Positions 18,577-30,033 of a stretch of DNA of 37,798 nt are shown here, piece after piece. The notes under the pieces are model-generated. The model did not search any database and was not told where the DNA came from. It saw only the letters and a program-made list of their open reading frames with translations. Numbering within the stretch: the first letter of the stretch is position 1; every line of letters starts with the position of its first letter. The DNA comes from a virus, in the IMG/VR virus record IMGVR_UViG_3300013116_000044, positions 1-37,798 of that record. The stretch is one strand, 5' to 3'. The position numbers and the translations under genes are program-made.

Positions 18577-20246
18577 GCGACCTTCCGAAAAAACTCCAAG
18601 ACTTCCGAAACTTTCTTTGGATGACTTGGAACCACCTTGCACTTCCTGCACCTACTCCTATCCAATACGAGATAGCCGAGTGGATGCAGAACGGTCCACG
18701 CCGAGGGGTGATCCAAGGATTCCGAGGTGTAGGTAAGTCATGGATTTGTTCAGCCTTCGTCGTTCATCAACTCCTCCTTGATCCACAGAAGAACATCCTG
18801 GTGGTCTCCGCATCCAAGAACCGCGCCGATGACTTCTCGACGTTCACCCTCCGACTCATTCACGAGATGGAGATCCTTGGACACCTAAAGCCCAACGACA
18901 AGCAACGCTTCTCCAAGATCTCCTTTGATGTTGGCCCAGCGCAAGCCTCACACGCACCCAGCGTCAAGTCCCTCGGTATAACATCACAGCTTACTGGTAG
19001 CCGTGCAGACATCATTGTGGCTGATGACGTGGAAGTCCCCAACAACTCCGCAACTCAATCCATGCGGGATAAGCTCTCGGAACAGGTCAAGGAGTTTGAA
19101 GCTATCCTTAAGCCCAACGATGACAGTCGAATCCTGTTCCTTGGGACTCCACAGTGCGAGGACAGTATCTACAACAAGATGCTCGAAAGGGACTACGAGA
19201 CTCGCATTTGGCCGGCGAAGAAGATCGGTGTGGAGAAGTCCGAGAAGATCTACCGAGGTAACATAGCGTCCTCGTGCATCGATGATGACCTTATCGGAAG
19301 CCCCACAGAACCCACACGATTCTCTGAGATTGACCTAGCAGAGCGTGAAGCTTCCTACGGTAAATCAGGGTTCGCCATGCAGTTCATGTTGGACCCCAAG
19401 CTGTCCGACTTGGATCGTTATCCATTGAAGATCAATGACTTAATAGTCATGGACATTGATGACACCACGGCTCCCGAAAAGCTGGTCTGGGCGCAATCAC
19501 CAGAGAACGCTTGGGATGCCTCCGTGCCGAACGTAGGGTTCACAGGGGATCGCTTCTTTCGCCCCATGAAGGTCATCGGTGATAACATCCCCTTCACTGG
19601 TAGTGTGTTAGCTATTGACCCATCGGGACGAGGCAAGGACGAAACCTCATGGGCAGTCGTAAAGATGCTCAACGGGTATCTCTATGTGACCGATGCCGGC
19701 GGTATGCAAGGGGGATACGATGAGACCGTCTTAAAGGTTCTCACGATGAAGGCCAAGATGAACAACGTGAATGTGATTGTTGTCGAAAGCAACTTCGGTG
19801 ACGGCATGTTCGTAGAGATCCTAAAGCCCTATCTCTCAAAGATTTATCCCGTAACCGTCGAAGAGGTTCGGCATAACATCCAGAAGGAGAAGCGCATCGT
19901 AGACACCCTGGAACCCGTGATGAACCAACACAAGCTGGTCATCGACCCCAAGGTCATCAGGAACGACTACGACACCGCCCAGAAGTATCCTATCGAGACC
20001 CAACTAAAATACCAGTTGATGTTCCAGATGTCTCGCCTGACACGAGAAAAGGGGGCGTTAACACACGATGACAGGCTTGACGCACTATCTATGGGAGTGG
20101 CATACTGGGTCGAACAGATGGCCCAAGATGCCGACATCAAGATCTCTGAACGAAAAGAGGAGGACATCCAAAGACAACTCCAGAAGTTCACGGATTCCTA
20201 CTACAAGATTAACGCTAACCAAGCACCCTCAACCACATGGATATAA
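18573..20246 (+). CDS. Terminase large subunit, T7 gp19-like
   Basis: The 557-residue protein has a Walker A motif GFRGVGKS (residues 49-56, Lys55), a Walker B-like IIVADD (147-152), and a nuclease-domain aspartate in VLAIDPSGRGKDETS (Asp349), the standard ATPase-plus-RNase-H-like nuclease arrangement. It pumps DNA into the procapsid and cuts concatemers. Length is close to T7 gp19 (586). The last ten bases overlap the amidase gene. Confidence 0.97.
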   Translation: MSDLPKKLQDFRNFLWMTWNHLALPAPTPIQYEIAEWMQNGPRRGVIQGFRGVGKSWICSAFVVHQLLLDPQKNILVVSASKNRADDFSTFTLRLIHEMEILGHLKPNDKQRFSKISFDVGPAQASHAPSVKSLGITSQLTGSRADIIVADDVEVPNNSATQSMRDKLSEQVKEFEAILKPNDDSRILFLGTPQCEDSIYNKMLERDYETRIWPAKKIGVEKSEKIYRGNIASSCIDDDLIGSPTEPTRFSEIDLAEREASYGKSGFAMQFMLDPKLSDLDRYPLKINDLIVMDIDDTTAPEKLVWAQSPENAWDASVPNVGFTGDRFFRPMKVIGDNIPFTGSVLAIDPSGRGKDETSWAVVKMLNGYLYVTDAGGMQGGYDETVLKVLTMKAKMNNVNVIVVESNFGDGMFVEILKPYLSKIYPVTVEEVRHNIQKEKRIVDTLEPVMNQHKLVIDPKVIRNDYDTAQKYPIETQLKYQLMFQMSRLTREKGALTHDDRLDALSMGVAYWVEQMAQDADIKISERKEEDIQRQLQKFTDSYYKINANQAPSTTWI

Positions 20247-21156: not shown

Positions 21157-21450
21157 ATGCAACGTAACTCCAACATCCCAGAGTCAGCTAAGGATCGCCT
21201 TGATCTAGCCTTAAGTATCCTTAACGAACACTTCGATGATGTCCTGGTGGCTGTGAATCACAGGGAGACTAGTAACATCCATGTGGAGTCCCCAACGCCT
21301 TATGCTGCCCTCGGGATGCTTCCGACTGTCCAAGGGAAGCTAAGGGAGTCTGTAGGACGCAACGAGTTGGCTCAGAGCATGCGTGAAGATGGAGGAGATT
21401 ATGGATTGTTATTTGAAGAAGAAGACAACAGTGAAGAGGAGCCGGAATAG
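21157..21450 (+). CDS. Hypothetical early protein, 97 aa
   Basis: An acidic, soluble protein with a helical N-terminal half (SAKDRLDLALSILNEHFDDV) and a highly acidic tail (EEEDNSEEEPE). I recognise no domain. It is the first gene after the late/early junction, followed by about 450 bases without a convincing gene, which would make it a candidate for immediate-early expression. The acidic tail is reminiscent of small phage inhibitors or DNA mimics but that is only a resemblance in charge. Confidence 0.6.
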   Translation: MQRNSNIPESAKDRLDLALSILNEHFDDVLVAVNHRETSNIHVESPTPYAALGMLPTVQGKLRESVGRNELAQSMREDGGDYGLLFEEEDNSEEEPE

Positions 21451-21902
21451 TTTTGTTACAAAAATCTGAAGGGGTATATATCGGTAGCGCGGTCGCGGTT
21501 CCCCCCGTTGCCCTCCCAGTAATGACATTGTGACTACCGATTGACGCGCTTTTTGATAGGGGGGGTCTATCGCTGGGGAATGCTAGCGTGAGTGATTAAG
21601 AGAGAGGTAATTGTAACGACATTAAGAAAGTCTTTTCATGTGATCGGATGCCATGAGGGGAGTGTTATTGACCAAGGGGACCCCACAATCGGAATTGTCG
21701 CTTTGCCAGGTTTTTGTGCATTTCCGCTTGTTTTTGTCGTGTCACCCCTTTTTTCTTTTGCTCTTAACACACTTAAAGCCAACGCCTTAAGTCTACCTGT
21801 CATACAATTCGTGTAAAAACACTCTTGAAACTTTTTTAATGCCGTGCAAATCTCTTTGAGGCTCATTTTTTGAGACCGACAAACAAAAACCATTAAACAA
21901 AA
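21451..21902. other. 452-bp gene-poor region with inverted repeats
   Basis: No convincing gene lies here. It holds an 8-bp inverted repeat ATCGGTAG (21480-21487) / CTACCGAT (21534-21541) around a GC-rich core with a C-run and a following G-run (GATAGGGGGGGTCTATC near 21555), a hairpin GTGTAAAAACAC near 21814, and T-rich stretches before the next gene. Short ORFs exist on both strands (+21592-21816, -21636-21893) but neither has a recognisable product. Possible roles include promoters for the early block, the packaging site, or a lysis-lysogeny control region. Confidence 0.4.
21453..21480 (+). promoter_or_regulatory. Weak sigma70-like promoter candidate
   Basis: TTGTTA (21453-21458) and TATATA (21475-21480) are separated by 16 bases. 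Each hexamer matches four of six positions of the bacterial consensus. The location ahead of the early block suits a host-polymerase promoter, but matches this weak occur by chance in AT-rich DNA. Confidence 0.25.
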
Positions 21903-22566: not shown

Positions 22567-22938
22567 ATGAAAACAAAAACAAAACAACAAGCAAAGCCAC
22601 AAGCCACCCTCTCCGCTCCTATTCAAAAGGCAGCGGAGGAAACCCCAAAAACAGCACAGAGGCGGCTAGGTTTGAACAAGGGCAAAGTGAGGCTTTGGAT
22701 TGAAGGGAAGCTCTTATCAGATTCCAATTGGAAGCGCGGCGATGCGTTTGATGTTATTTGGTTGGATGGCGTTTTGCGCTATGTCAAAAACCCTAACGGA
22801 TCTCGTAAAGTCGCCGGAACGGAAGCGCGTCCGATTATTGATACCAATACCGACAAGCTCACTACTACGCTCCACGCGACCACGGGGGAAAAGGTATCGC
22901 TCACTGTCACTTCCAGTTCAATCACAATTCAGAAGTAG
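22567..22938 (+). CDS. Hypothetical protein, possible SymE/AbrB-like small domain
   Basis: The 123-residue protein has a basic, low-complexity N-terminus (residues 1-30) and a compact domain with RRLGLNKGKVRLWIEGKLL, a GDAFDVIW strand, KVAGTEARPIIDTN and a C-terminal VSLTVTSSSITIQK. The order LNKGK-RLWIEG ... PIID ... V-V-x-I-x-I resembles small bacterial proteins that I associate with SymE-like swapped-hairpin beta folds found near DNA methyltransferases. This is a tentative similarity from memory. It is preceded by structured leader A. Confidence 0.6.
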   Translation: MKTKTKQQAKPQATLSAPIQKAAEETPKTAQRRLGLNKGKVRLWIEGKLLSDSNWKRGDAFDVIWLDGVLRYVKNPNGSRKVAGTEARPIIDTNTDKLTTTLHATTGEKVSLTVTSSSITIQK

Positions 22939-25230: not shown

Positions 25231-25270
25231 AAGAGCCACCTTGGGATTCCCCTTGGTGGCTCTTTTCTTT
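25231..25270 (+). terminator. Intrinsic terminator before the integrase region
   Basis: AAGAGCCACC (25231-25240) pairs perfectly with GGTGGCTCTT (25255-25264) around a 14-base loop and is followed by TTCTTTTG. Ten perfect pairs and a T-rich tail make a clear rho-independent terminator. It separates the small accessory genes from the integrase, so the integrase probably has its own promoter. Confidence 0.9.
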
Positions 25271-25372: not shown

Positions 25373-25424
25373 CTTTCCCATCGTGCTTTCCCATCGTGCT
25401 TTCCCCTCGGTCTTTCCCCTTACG
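25373..25424. repeat. Four tandem 13-bp repeats (CTTTCCC...)
   Basis: Units: CTTTCCCATCGTG (25373-25385 and 25386-25398), CTTTCCCCTCGGT (25399-25411), CTTTCCCCTTACG (25412-25424). The first seven bases are constant and the last six vary. Head-to-tail arrangement at fixed 13-bp spacing is iteron-like and suits cooperative protein binding. Confidence 0.85.
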
Positions 25425-25527
25425 TCCTTACGTTTTCCCGCGAAAGTGTAAGCACCTTAAGCCCTGGCCTGGTGGAGATAAAAAACAACCAAAAAACAAT
25501 CTTGACCTTTTCCCGCATCCGTTTTAA

Positions 25528-26175
25528 TCGTTGGGCATGTCAAAGAAAAACACGACACTAGCAGAGATATTCGACACCACCTTCTTGAATCGTTGGGCCG
25601 GTAAAGCCAGGGAGGAAGTTGAGCAGCGAAATATAACCTTCTGGCTCAGGAACCTCCCGAAAACAACAAGGGGTCTTTCGTTGGGCACAATCGACAAGGT
25701 GATCCGCGATGAGATCTCAAAAGGTAACAAGCCTTCCACTATCAACAGCAAGCTCCAGACCCTAAAGACCGCCTTGGATTTCACAAGGGAGCGAGGGATG
25801 CATGACGTTGGGCTTAAAGTTCCGCGCCTTAAGCAAGGCAACGATGCGCGTATTGGATTTTTCAGTGCGGAAGACCAAGCTCACATTGAATCGTTGATTG
25901 AGTGTGATCGCTTTCGGGACTTCTTTGTGTGGTCGATTGAAACAGGTCTTCGTCCTTCTGAATCGTTGGGCCTGAACTCCAAGATGATCCGAAAAGATCC
26001 GGTAGTGGGTGCGGTGATTGATGTTATTAAAACCAAGAACGGGGAGCCACGCACCATCCCTCTCACAAAGAAAGCCTTGGAGTGTTTGGAACGCCGGAAA
26101 AGCTGGGCTGAGTTCCGAGGCATAAGGATCACCCGTGAGTGGCGTAAGCTTCGCGGAAAGGATTCCTCGTTGGGC
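25528..26175 (+). repeat. Dispersed TCGTTGGGC word, six copies on one strand
   Basis: TCGTTGGGC occurs at 25528, 25590, 25678, 25963 and 26167, with ACGTTGGGC at 25805. The copies fall in all three codon registers of the integrase gene (N-R-W-A, S-L-G, D-V-G) and one lies just before its start codon, so protein coding does not explain them. Elsewhere in the window I found only a few related copies, two of them in the terminase gene on the other strand. Confidence 0.75.
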
Positions 26176-26352
26176 CGATTTGTGTTCTATACATGCCGCC
26201 ATACGTGTGCCACAAGACTCCTTAGTCGGGGTGTTAATGTTAAGGTGGTGCAATCCTGGATGGGACACAAGGACATCACGATGACGCTACGCTACGCCAA
26301 ATTGGTCCCAACGGATCTTGCAGCAGCACGGGACTTGATGGATAACGCCTAA
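25537..26352 (+). CDS. int: Tyrosine recombinase / phage integrase
   Basis: From the ATG at 25537 (a TTG six bases earlier is less likely) the product is 271 residues with the tyrosine recombinase catalytic set: Arg139 in TGLRPSE, Lys167 in IKTKNGEPRTIPL, the box II YTCRHTCATR (Arg221, with Tyr at the usual His position), His244 in GHKD and nucleophile Tyr253 in LRYAK. The N-terminal ~100 residues are a SAM-like core-binding domain. It would catalyse integration between phage and host attachment sites. A tRNA-like sequence, the usual target type, begins seven bases after the stop. No repressor gene is recognised. Its position before the RNA polymerase is as in integrase-bearing marine T7-like phages. 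Confidence 0.95.
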   Translation: MSKKNTTLAEIFDTTFLNRWAGKAREEVEQRNITFWLRNLPKTTRGLSLGTIDKVIRDEISKGNKPSTINSKLQTLKTALDFTRERGMHDVGLKVPRLKQGNDARIGFFSAEDQAHIESLIECDRFRDFFVWSIETGLRPSESLGLNSKMIRKDPVVGAVIDVIKTKNGEPRTIPLTKKALECLERRKSWAEFRGIRITREWRKLRGKDSSLGRFVFYTCRHTCATRLLSRGVNVKVVQSWMGHKDITMTLRYAKLVPTDLAAARDLMDNA

Positions 26353-26358
26353 CCAAAA

Positions 26359-26434
26359 TGGTGCATAGTCCAATGTAGAGACGGCTCGATACAAAGAGTG
26401 CCAATGTGTGAGTTCAAATCTCACTGCACCACCA
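26359..26434 (+). other. attP: tRNA-like sequence, candidate attP core
   Basis: The 3' part is a perfect tRNA T-arm and acceptor: GTGAG-TTCAAAT-CTCAC followed by TGCACCA and CCA. The 5' end TGGTGCA pairs fully with TGCACCA (seven pairs), is followed by TAG as in tRNA positions 8-10, and the span is 73 bases, normal for a tRNA. However the anticodon stem does not pair and the D-loop lacks GG, so it is probably not a working tRNA. Directly after an integrase this is best read as the attachment site overlapping a host tRNA 3' end. Confidence 0.65.
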
Positions 26435-26886: not shown

Positions 26887-27174
26887 ATGAAAACAATACT
26901 ACTTACAATAACCGCCCTGTGTGCCGTTTCAACCTCCACTGTTCTGTTCTGGCAACCATACTCACCGCCACCACCGCCGGCCCCACCTCAACAACTCAAT
27001 GCCTCCGTGATGTTAACAAAGTGGCAAGTCCACAAGATGCTCAATAGTTTCGACGAGGATGATCACATGGCTGAGATGCGTGTGTTTCATTCAGTGGTAA
27101 AAAATTCAGCCGATGGTTGGAGAATCTCTTCGACTCACCTTGTAAGAAATGATTATGAAAACAAAGAAAGATAA
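26887..27174 (+). CDS. Hypothetical membrane-anchored or secreted protein, 95 aa
   Basis: An N-terminal hydrophobic segment (MKTILLTITALCAVSTSTVL) looks like a signal anchor or signal peptide without a lipobox, followed by a proline run (SPPPPPAPP) and a soluble domain of about 60 residues. No family recognised. Its last 26 bases overlap the DnaA-like gene. Small envelope proteins in early phage blocks sometimes act in superinfection exclusion; here that is only a possibility. Confidence 0.6.
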   Translation: MKTILLTITALCAVSTSTVLFWQPYSPPPPPAPPQQLNASVMLTKWQVHKMLNSFDEDDHMAEMRVFHSVVKNSADGWRISSTHLVRNDYENKER

Positions 27175-27532
27175 AACGATTAAAGGACTCACCAGCTACA
27201 AGCGTAACATCGTCGAAAGGGTGTGCGCGTTAGTAGCCGCTGAGTTTGCCATTGACGAGGGTGACCTGTTTGTTAAATCCAGGGCTTGCCAATACTCAGT
27301 CCCGAGATCAATCGCGGCGTCACTCCTGCACAAGAGCTTTGGAATACAGCAGCAGATCCTTGCGGATTATTTTGGGTATGTCTCACACAGTAGCGTCCCC
27401 CATGCTGTCCGGTCTCTTGACCGTAGGATCAACACGGAGCCGGAGTTGAGGTTTATCATCCAGAACATCCTGAAGAATGTAAACCGTCACCTAGAGCGAA
27501 AAACTCTTGAACGTCACCCCCAACAGTATTAG
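27149..27532 (+). CDS. Stand-alone DnaA domain IV-like DNA-binding protein
   Basis: The 127-residue protein (ATG 27149, or 27155 for 125 residues) resembles the C-terminal DNA-binding domain of the bacterial initiator DnaA: a helix with SVPRSIAASLLHKSFG, then LADYFGYVSHSSVPHAVRSL corresponding to the DnaA signature in which D-H-S-T-V-x-H-A is typical (here SHSSVPHAV), and a final helix RFIIQNILKNV. There is no AAA+ ATPase domain. It could bind DnaA boxes in the phage or host, competing with host DnaA or marking a phage origin. It sits immediately before the RNA polymerase gene. Confidence 0.78.
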   Translation: MIMKTKKDKTIKGLTSYKRNIVERVCALVAAEFAIDEGDLFVKSRACQYSVPRSIAASLLHKSFGIQQQILADYFGYVSHSSVPHAVRSLDRRINTEPELRFIIQNILKNVNRHLERKTLERHPQQY

Positions 27533-27624: not shown

Positions 27625-30033
27625 ATGAAACAGGACGAATTGAATCAGGACATGGTGGACATGGGGGTAGCTCGCTATCGTCGTAATGCCACAAGCACCA
27701 AGGGGTCATTGACACAGGCGGGAAGACGCATCATGCGTGACGGGGTGGAGCCGGTGGTGTTAGGGCTTACTGAGTCCATTGAAAAGATCAAACCTATCCG
27801 TAACAAATCTCGCTGGCAGAAGTGCCTTGCTGAGTTAACCCTTCCCGATACCCGTGCGGTGGGATTGTTAGCAGTTAAAGCCACCCTTGATATCCTTGAT
27901 GAGCCACGCAGCTACGCCTCGGTCGCAAGCAAGCTGGGTCGTGCCGTTGAAGACCAGTTGCTTTCGTCCATGTTAATTCGTGACCATGAGTTTGGTAGTC
28001 GATTGGTCAAGCGTATGCAAGACCTCGCCAATCGTGGGGCCGTCCAGAGTCGCTACCTTCACAAGACCGCAAGGAATGAGGAGATGGATTGGGATGATTG
28101 GACACGCAGAGATCGCATTGGGTGTGGAGCGTTGTTGTTAGAGATAGTGCATGACCGCACCGGCTTGATTGCCTTCACTGAGAAAGCCCAACGCCGGCGA
28201 CGAGTCTTCAAACCGATGCGTATGGTGGAGCTTTCGGAAGTCACAAGGGAGTGGATCAACGACTATAACAATCACCGCGAACTGTTGCTGCCATTCTGGA
28301 TGCCGATGGTTGAGTCCCCTACACCGTGGGATCGAGTCTTTGGGGGAGGCTACGGGTTCGCCTCGGATGACTCCAGTCCTCTTCCGGCTTTACCTTTTAT
28401 CCGCTGCAGTGATCGGGATGTGTTACGCCAAGCACCGGAGATGCCCGAGGTTTACAATGCGGTTAACCTTATTCAAGAGACACCCTATGCCATCAACAAC
28501 CGCGTCATGGATGTCCTGGAGTGGGCATGGGACAGCGACCTAGAGATAGGGCTACCGCCTCGCCAAGATGTTCCCCTTCCAGAGTGGACTGATGCCAACG
28601 CTAACATGACGGAGGAGCAGATACGGAACTGGCGTGATGACAAGCGTGAGTTAGCGGCACACAACATGGGCCTAGCGAGTCAGCGCATTCTCATCTCAAA
28701 GATCTTGATGCTTGCCCGTAAGTTTCGTGGTGAGCGTATGTTTATGCCATCCTCGTGTGACTTCCGTGGTCGCATCTATCAGATCCCCAGCTATCTTAAC
28801 TACCAAGGACCAGACCATTGCAGGGGATTGTTACAGTTTCACAGGGGTCTTCCCATCAAGAGTGATGAGGACAAGAAGTGGTTAGGCATCCACGGGGCCA
28901 ACTGTTTCGGCCACGACAAGATCGCCTTCGATGATCGCCTTGCGTGGGCTGAAGGATTCACCCGTGATGCCATACGGATTGCCAACGACCCAAGGGGGAA
29001 CAGGGAGTGGGCAGAGGCAGACGAACCGTGGCAAGCGTTGGCGTGGTGCTTTGAATGGGCTGACCTCCACACCAAGACCTCCAAGAACTTTCAGACATAC
29101 CTTCCGTGTGCTATGGACGCGACGAACTCTGGGTTACAGTTGTTGTCGTTGTTGAGCAGGGATGAACATGGATGCCACGCAACCAACGTAAGCCCTACGG
29201 ATTCCCCTGAAGACATCTACCGGATGGTATCGGATCACACCTTGGGAGTCCTTCGTGATCATGCCGCTGAGGGACGTGACTACGCTCGCCTTTGGATCGA
29301 CTTCGGGATCGACCGTAAGATGTCCAAGCGTCCGGTGATGTGTTATAGTTATGGTCTCACTCCCTACTCCAACAGGGATTATGTAGCGTCATGGTATGAT
29401 GAGACCCGACGGCAACGTGGTATCGAGTGTGTCTTTGGTCGCCGGCACGTTTACCCAGCCATTAAGTATCTTGGGGATCTCCTGTGGGAAAGCATTGAGA
29501 CTCTCCTTACTCGCCCGAAGCAAGTCATGGATTGGTTCCAGGATGTTGCCCATATGTTAGCGGAACAGGACGAGGCGTTAACATGGACAACACCGAGTGG
29601 GTTCCGAGTGAGCCAAGACTACCGCAAGCAGGTCAGCCGGAAGGTCGCCACATGGTTACACGGGTCACTCACTGCTGTTAGATTTAAGGATAGCACCGAT
29701 GAACTCGACACGCGCAAGCAGCGCAACGGGGTAGCTCCTAATGTAGTCCATAGTCTTGACGCTGCTGGGTTGGTGTTAACTACTAACGAAGCCCATCGCC
29801 GTGGTGTTTATGACTTCGCGATGATTCATGACAGCTTCGCCACTCACAGTAATAACTGCGATGTATTAGCCTCTTCGATACGCGACTCCTTTGCCGCAAT
29901 GTTCTCGAAAGATATTCTTGCCAGCCTTGCCGAACAATGGCAAAACAATAGTGTTGAGCCTCTACCTCCCCTACCCGAATACGGAACCTTTGATGTTAAC
30001 ACCCTTCGGGACTCAAAATACTTTTTCAGCTAA
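27625..30033 (+). CDS. T7-like single-subunit DNA-directed RNA polymerase
   Basis: The 802-residue protein (T7 883) has the single-subunit polymerase motifs: DFRGR at about 378-382 (T/DxxGR), motif A with catalytic Asp498 in CAMDATNSG, motif B K568-RPVMCYSY576-G with the same Lys-to-Tyr spacing as T7 Lys631/Tyr639, and motif C with Asp736 in MIHDSFATH. The protein ends near the canonical C-terminus (final residues YFFS). It transcribes middle and late phage genes from phage promoters, whose sequence I could not identify. The N-terminal domain is somewhat shorter than in T7. Confidence 0.97.
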   Translation: MKQDELNQDMVDMGVARYRRNATSTKGSLTQAGRRIMRDGVEPVVLGLTESIEKIKPIRNKSRWQKCLAELTLPDTRAVGLLAVKATLDILDEPRSYASVASKLGRAVEDQLLSSMLIRDHEFGSRLVKRMQDLANRGAVQSRYLHKTARNEEMDWDDWTRRDRIGCGALLLEIVHDRTGLIAFTEKAQRRRRVFKPMRMVELSEVTREWINDYNNHRELLLPFWMPMVESPTPWDRVFGGGYGFASDDSSPLPALPFIRCSDRDVLRQAPEMPEVYNAVNLIQETPYAINNRVMDVLEWAWDSDLEIGLPPRQDVPLPEWTDANANMTEEQIRNWRDDKRELAAHNMGLASQRILISKILMLARKFRGERMFMPSSCDFRGRIYQIPSYLNYQGPDHCRGLLQFHRGLPIKSDEDKKWLGIHGANCFGHDKIAFDDRLAWAEGFTRDAIRIANDPRGNREWAEADEPWQALAWCFEWADLHTKTSKNFQTYLPCAMDATNSGLQLLSLLSRDEHGCHATNVSPTDSPEDIYRMVSDHTLGVLRDHAAEGRDYARLWIDFGIDRKMSKRPVMCYSYGLTPYSNRDYVASWYDETRRQRGIECVFGRRHVYPAIKYLGDLLWESIETLLTRPKQVMDWFQDVAHMLAEQDEALTWTTPSGFRVSQDYRKQVSRKVATWLHGSLTAVRFKDSTDELDTRKQRNGVAPNVVHSLDAAGLVLTTNEAHRRGVYDFAMIHDSFATHSNNCDVLASSIRDSFAAMFSKDILASLAEQWQNNSVEPLPPLPEYGTFDVNTLRDSKYFFS

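Follow-up and report, generated by a model that had tools for sequence, protein, structure and literature searches.

A nine-base word under nucleotide-level selection in the integrase genes of one clade of marine T7-like phages, with a putative role as a protein-binding site

The integrase gene of a T7-like phage contains co-oriented copies of a 9 bp word, TCGTTGGGC, and comparison with related phages demonstrates that selection acts on this word at the nucleotide level. The word is probably a landing site for a protein that controls int. The DNA analyzed (the window) is the 37,798 nt stretch corresponding to positions 1 to 37,798 of IMG/VR record IMGVR_UViG_3300013116_000044, and among annotated phages it is closest to AP013544 (Ayaqvirus S45C18, Autographiviridae), which comes from the Mediterranean and is uncultured. 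The 271-residue integrase is encoded upstream of a T7-like RNA polymerase gene, and the features of the region are as follows.

25231..25264, + strand: terminator-like hairpin (inverted repeat I3) with a T-rich tract after it
25502..25528, + strand: putative promoter-like sequence TTGACC-15-TTTAAT with a short spacer, read from the sequence
25528..25536, + strand: word 1, TCGTTGGGC, abutting the ATG and sharing one base with the -10-like hexamer
25537..26352, + strand: tyrosine integrase gene carrying the words (PF00589, E 1.6e-18; phrog_1, E 9.7e-38)
25590..25598, + strand: word 2, offset 53 from the ATG, register 2
25678..25686, + strand: word 3, offset 141, register 0
25805..25813, + strand: one-change copy ACGTTGGGC, offset 268, register 1
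25963..25971, + strand: word 4, offset 426, register 0, over the catalytic-arginine box
26167..26175, + strand: word 5, offset 630, register 0
27149..27532, + strand: DnaA domain IV-like protein between int and the RNA polymerase gene (PF08299, E 2.4e-9)
27625..30033, + strand: T7-like RNA polymerase gene, by homology to the annotated RNA polymerase of AP013544

The terminator-like hairpin separates int from the upstream genes. The first base of word 1 is the last base of the -10-like hexamer and its last base adjoins the ATG at 25537, and the same layout (a -35-like element, 15 nt, a -10-like element and word 1) recurs in three subclades of relatives. We treat the promoter as putative because a consensus promoter scan with the usual spacer did not report 25502..25528. 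Short tandem-like repeats (CTTTCCCATCGTG) precede int at 25373–25421 and differ between close relatives; contig L013 has unlike repeats of this kind (GTGTCATCCCTTG) upstream of int. Further upstream, short noncoding elements at 21446–21480 (TTTTGTTACAAAAATCTGAAGGGGTATA) and about 21724–21755 (TTGTTTTTGTCGTGTCACCCCTTTT) are conserved in clades A and B (defined below), and perhaps lie near the genome end.

A first-pass annotation, made from the sequence of the window alone, had described five exact copies and one single-change copy on the same strand between 25528 and 26175, starting directly before the start codon, and its positions and spacings are correct. Exact copies start at 25528, 25590, 25678, 25963 and 26167, all on the plus strand, and with the one-change copy at 25805 the copy-to-copy spacings are 62, 88, 127, 158 and 204 bases. 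Within the window, the statement that the copies occupy all three codon registers depends on counting the imperfect copy at 25805, which is the least certain member of the array because few relatives keep it; in relatives, an exact copy at offset 466 completes the three registers. The copies in register 0 (25678, 25963 and 26167) encode Ser-Leu-Gly as TCG TTG GGC.

The array is beyond chance expectation, as had been supposed: whole-window dinucleotide shuffles contain a mean of 0.26 copies and a maximum of three, and within 700 bases five copies are reached by no other 9-mer of the window. The copies are not reproduced either when the integrase gene is shuffled with its codons preserved, with at most three in 20,000 trials against the four observed within the gene, and in 3,000 of these trials no 9-mer of any kind reached four copies. 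A literature search for the word itself gave, among the papers listed, unrelated text matches only.

A scan of IMG/VR yielded related integrases falling into clade A (96–100% protein identity) and clade B (72–76% over longer matches), and further scans added a subclade B2 (70–72%). All 29 integrase genes from these three subclades (about 70–100% protein identity) have at least three exact copies, 125 in the sense orientation against 0 in antisense, a pattern shared only by 9-mers that overlap the word. Every int-bearing clade A or B contig in which most of the gene is present carries words. Their positions turn over between subclades. Clade A retains offsets -9, 53, 141, 426 and 630; clade B retains 53, 141 (with two exceptions) and 426 and lacks 630, a position confined to clade A, and has instead an exact copy at offset 466 in the third register (register 1); B2 retains 53, 426 and 466, the word 3 position being absent. 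The word 1 position is retained in clade A and in most of B and B2; the word there is often degenerate in clade B, and in several genomes of that clade a near-word, TCGTTGGGG, precedes the -35-like box. Clade C is represented by one contig end whose integrase is 57% identical. It lacks the word, and a 15 bp exact repeat (CGTTGGAGTCAAAAG) occurs before the start and again inside the gene at the corresponding position.

Across whole genomes, hardly any exact copies occur outside the coding sequence of int and its start. The suggestion that the gene was built under host-specific motif selection therefore fails for a genome-wide motif, the word being almost int-only in every genome examined. The window has two extra exact copies that the first-pass annotation did not mention, at 18890 and 19112 in the terminase gene, both on the minus strand; these arise from two Lys-Pro-Asn-Asp stretches, and one of them is kept in the close relative G001 and neither in the clade B genomes G002 and G003. 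The start of the clade B RNA polymerase gene also has xCGTTGGGC; conservation there extends over the whole stretch, and the sequence is missing from a few genes that start differently.

When 28 int genes are aligned by codon, 87 columns show no residue change and belong to amino acids with four or six codons, and only five of these columns use a single codon throughout (R19, A21, S143, L144 and G145). All five are in or touching words, against none of the 82 other columns (5/5 vs 0/82; Fisher p 2.7e-8, a value that overstates independence because the genes share ancestry and the columns adjoin one another), and the contrast is plain despite this kinship. The third base of A21 is just outside the word, so the conserved element there is slightly longer than nine bases. 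For comparison, four-fold third positions of the window agree with clade B at about 50% and with B2 at 33–39%. The longest invariant run of the gene, GAATCGTTGGGC at offset 423, is at word 4; other long invariant runs are CGTTGGGCC at offset 54, in the word 2 region, and AACGGGGAGCC at offset 501 (window about 26038), an 11-base run that encodes Asn-Gly-Glu-Pro and is not a word. The turnover of sites (630 versus 466), the use of three registers and the codon conservation thus indicate that the nucleotide word itself is under selection. The observation is stronger than could be known from the window, with words persisting at silent positions in related phages, and the general reading of the words as binding sites is well supported because they survived both the codon shuffles and the comparison with relatives; as a specific interpretation, binding sites for integrase, a directionality factor or a repressor, the earlier proposal is partly supported.

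We consider it an even call that the words are sites of an asymmetric, sequence-specific DNA-binding protein that limits int transcription. That the reader is a protein, that it reads the word as DNA and that the effect is repressive are each inferred. Protein bound at the site that overlaps the promoter-like sequence and abuts the start codon would hinder initiation, and protein bound at the intragenic sites, all of which face the direction of transcription, could impede elongating polymerase, such that int transcription would be restrained both at initiation and during elongation. Restraint of int appears the most likely effect given the anatomy of the locus and the precedents of stoperators and self-repressing integrases (below). 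Double-stranded DNA read by a protein is favored over RNA because of the near-word TCGTTGGGG, the co-orientation, the promoter and internal placement, and the unexposed position of the words in predicted mRNA. The promoter site is not the essential part, because in part of clade B word 1 is degenerate and the internal words are kept. The wide separation of the sites, which in typical operators would lie side by side, counts against this reading. To our knowledge, control of an integrase by an intragenic array of co-oriented sites is known from no described phage.

A MarR-like protein is encoded between int and the RNA polymerase gene in clade B and in some clade A genomes (L010, L012 and L037), and the clade A and B versions are homologous (blastp 9e-11); in the window and in L008, L009, L011 and L013 the slot is taken by the DnaA domain IV-like protein. 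Clade A phages carry the same words whichever of the two proteins they encode. Both neighbors are thus disfavored as readers because the regulators swap while the words stay, and the DnaA domain IV-like protein is in any event found in only part of clade A and absent from most carriers. Stand-alone occurrence of this domain (27149–27532) in the slot that holds a MarR-like regulator in sister phages is an apparent swap of regulator type. The protein encoded at 22567–22938 is present in clades A and B (54–77% identical), has no Pfam or PHROG match and resembles by eye DNA-binding proteins of the AbrB/SymE type; it is rejected as a universal reader, not being found in several word-bearing contigs that hold the int-upstream region. 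No recombination directionality factor was recognized. Common to all word carriers near the words are the integrase and the RNA polymerase, and the carriers presumably share a common kind of host.

As candidate readers, the integrase or a host protein would fit better than the neighboring phage regulators; of the proteins first proposed, the integrase is possible and adjacent regulators are disfavored. The changed word of clade C would fit a reader that changes with its integrase, and equally another host, as judged from the one contig end. That the intragenic co-oriented array is used by the integrase or a host protein to throttle int transcription, with no part played by the neighboring regulator, is a tentative proposal.

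Unlikely, but the better placed of the remaining alternatives, is recognition at the RNA level, in which a small RNA or RNA-binding protein would recognize UCGUUGGGC in int mRNA and control its translation or decay, with P4- and P1-type antisense immunity as an analogue. Every copy is on the sense strand and all but word 1 are certainly intragenic, giving several sites per transcript. However, in mRNA folds predicted for ten genes the words are mostly at or below median accessibility with no trend to being unpaired, no conserved complement of the word is present elsewhere in the genomes, and the near-word that part of clade B has ahead of the -35-like box would fall outside a transcript started at that promoter.

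A little less probable still is a role in recombination, with the words serving as integrase half-sites or accessory sites for integration or excision and int forming part of attP. The 9 bp size and asymmetry would suit the site of a tyrosine recombinase monomer, the gene shared by every carrier is int, and in the one clade C contig a 57% identical integrase accompanies replacement of the word by another repeat. Nonetheless, the sites are spread across 640 bp, no attP was located, and an attP core of two inverted words is rejected, as no inverted pair at a conserved place exceeds the background set by shuffling. The 271-residue protein also has no evident lambda-type arm-binding N-terminal domain (the phrog_1 alignment starts at profile position 162 and that of PF00589 at residue 128), and the AlphaFold model of the integrase is too poor to use (mean pLDDT 52). 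A tRNA-like element directly follows int in the window (26360–26432), L011 (3665–3741) and L013 (3820–3896). ARAGORN reports those of L011 and L013 as tRNA-??? with anticodon taaa and an abnormal loop, and that of the window is below threshold. The element may be a former attachment site, but its presence in only part of clade A (it is absent from L009, L010, L012 and L037) argues against a recombinational role for the words. A host search using the tRNA-like 3′ end found no match in genome contigs, and a search for a lysogen with a related integrase found none.

Pause or termination signals for the phage or host RNA polymerase, such that little int is made, are an improbable explanation. The words are asymmetric and co-oriented with transcription and the phage RNA polymerase is also common to all carriers, but the T7 class II pause word ATCTGTT is absent from the coding strand of the window, and there would be no reason for other genes to lack the word. 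Coincidence, codon bias and a peptide repeat, the last in keeping with the three copies that encode Ser-Leu-Gly, can be dismissed as sources of the array, being refuted, as the first-pass annotation had argued for the peptide, by the three registers, the codon shuffles and a codon conservation that other four- and six-fold columns do not match.

In these marine T7-like phages evolution has kept the word letter by letter, also at positions where the protein sequence does not call for it. For the unsettled question of how integrase-bearing T7-like phages choose between lysis and integration, a selected word almost confined to int offers a testable handle, predicting a specific binding protein and a measurable effect of silent mutations on integration. 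More generally, a phage coding sequence can hold a second code at the nucleotide level, seen only when relatives are compared.

The array appears to be a feature of this clade, because it is carried by clade A and B contigs and by none of the other T7-like phages and contigs compared: neither 12 other integrase-bearing T7-like phages (LUZ100, pelagiphages, a roseophage and others) nor 12 contigs with about 31–40% identical integrases beside related RNA polymerases have such an array. A two-word scan of viral contigs found a few with at least three copies outside the clade, and the one non-clade contig examined (L143) has a pentapeptide-type repeat.

Three described systems resemble the locus in part. 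The stoperators of cluster A mycobacteriophages (L5, TipsytheTRex) are 13 bp sites whose known monomeric repressor acts in an orientation-dependent manner (PMC9283540); a stoperator loses its effect when reversed, and bound repressor halts elongation. The words are similar in being short, asymmetric, co-oriented and multi-copy, with both promoter and transcribed-region kinds; as with stoperators, they are oriented with transcription (all 125 copies in the 29 genes). They differ in that stoperators are located in promoters and short intergenic spaces genome-wide (PMC9283540), whereas the 9 bp words are within one coding sequence and almost int-only, and a general profile scan of early genes recognized no cluster A-type two-domain monomeric repressor. 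In prophage KplE1 the integrase IntS represses its own synthesis (PMC2951348), and the likeness is of an integrase gene with protein-binding sites, here putative, at its own promoter. The KplE1 sites are attL recombination sites of core and arm types (PMC2951348), with core sites overlapping the int promoter, whereas here most sites are intragenic, no att was found, and no inverted word pair is present over the int promoter or at a conserved place elsewhere. Finally, LUZ100 exemplifies temperate T7-like phages with a MarR-type lysogeny module (PMC10134795). In the present phages a MarR-like gene lies beside int and the RNA polymerase gene in clade B and some of clade A, the DnaA domain IV-like gene filling this slot in the window. 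LUZ100 and the other such phages tested have no repeated int word, whereas in the phages described here the regulator is exchangeable and the words stay.
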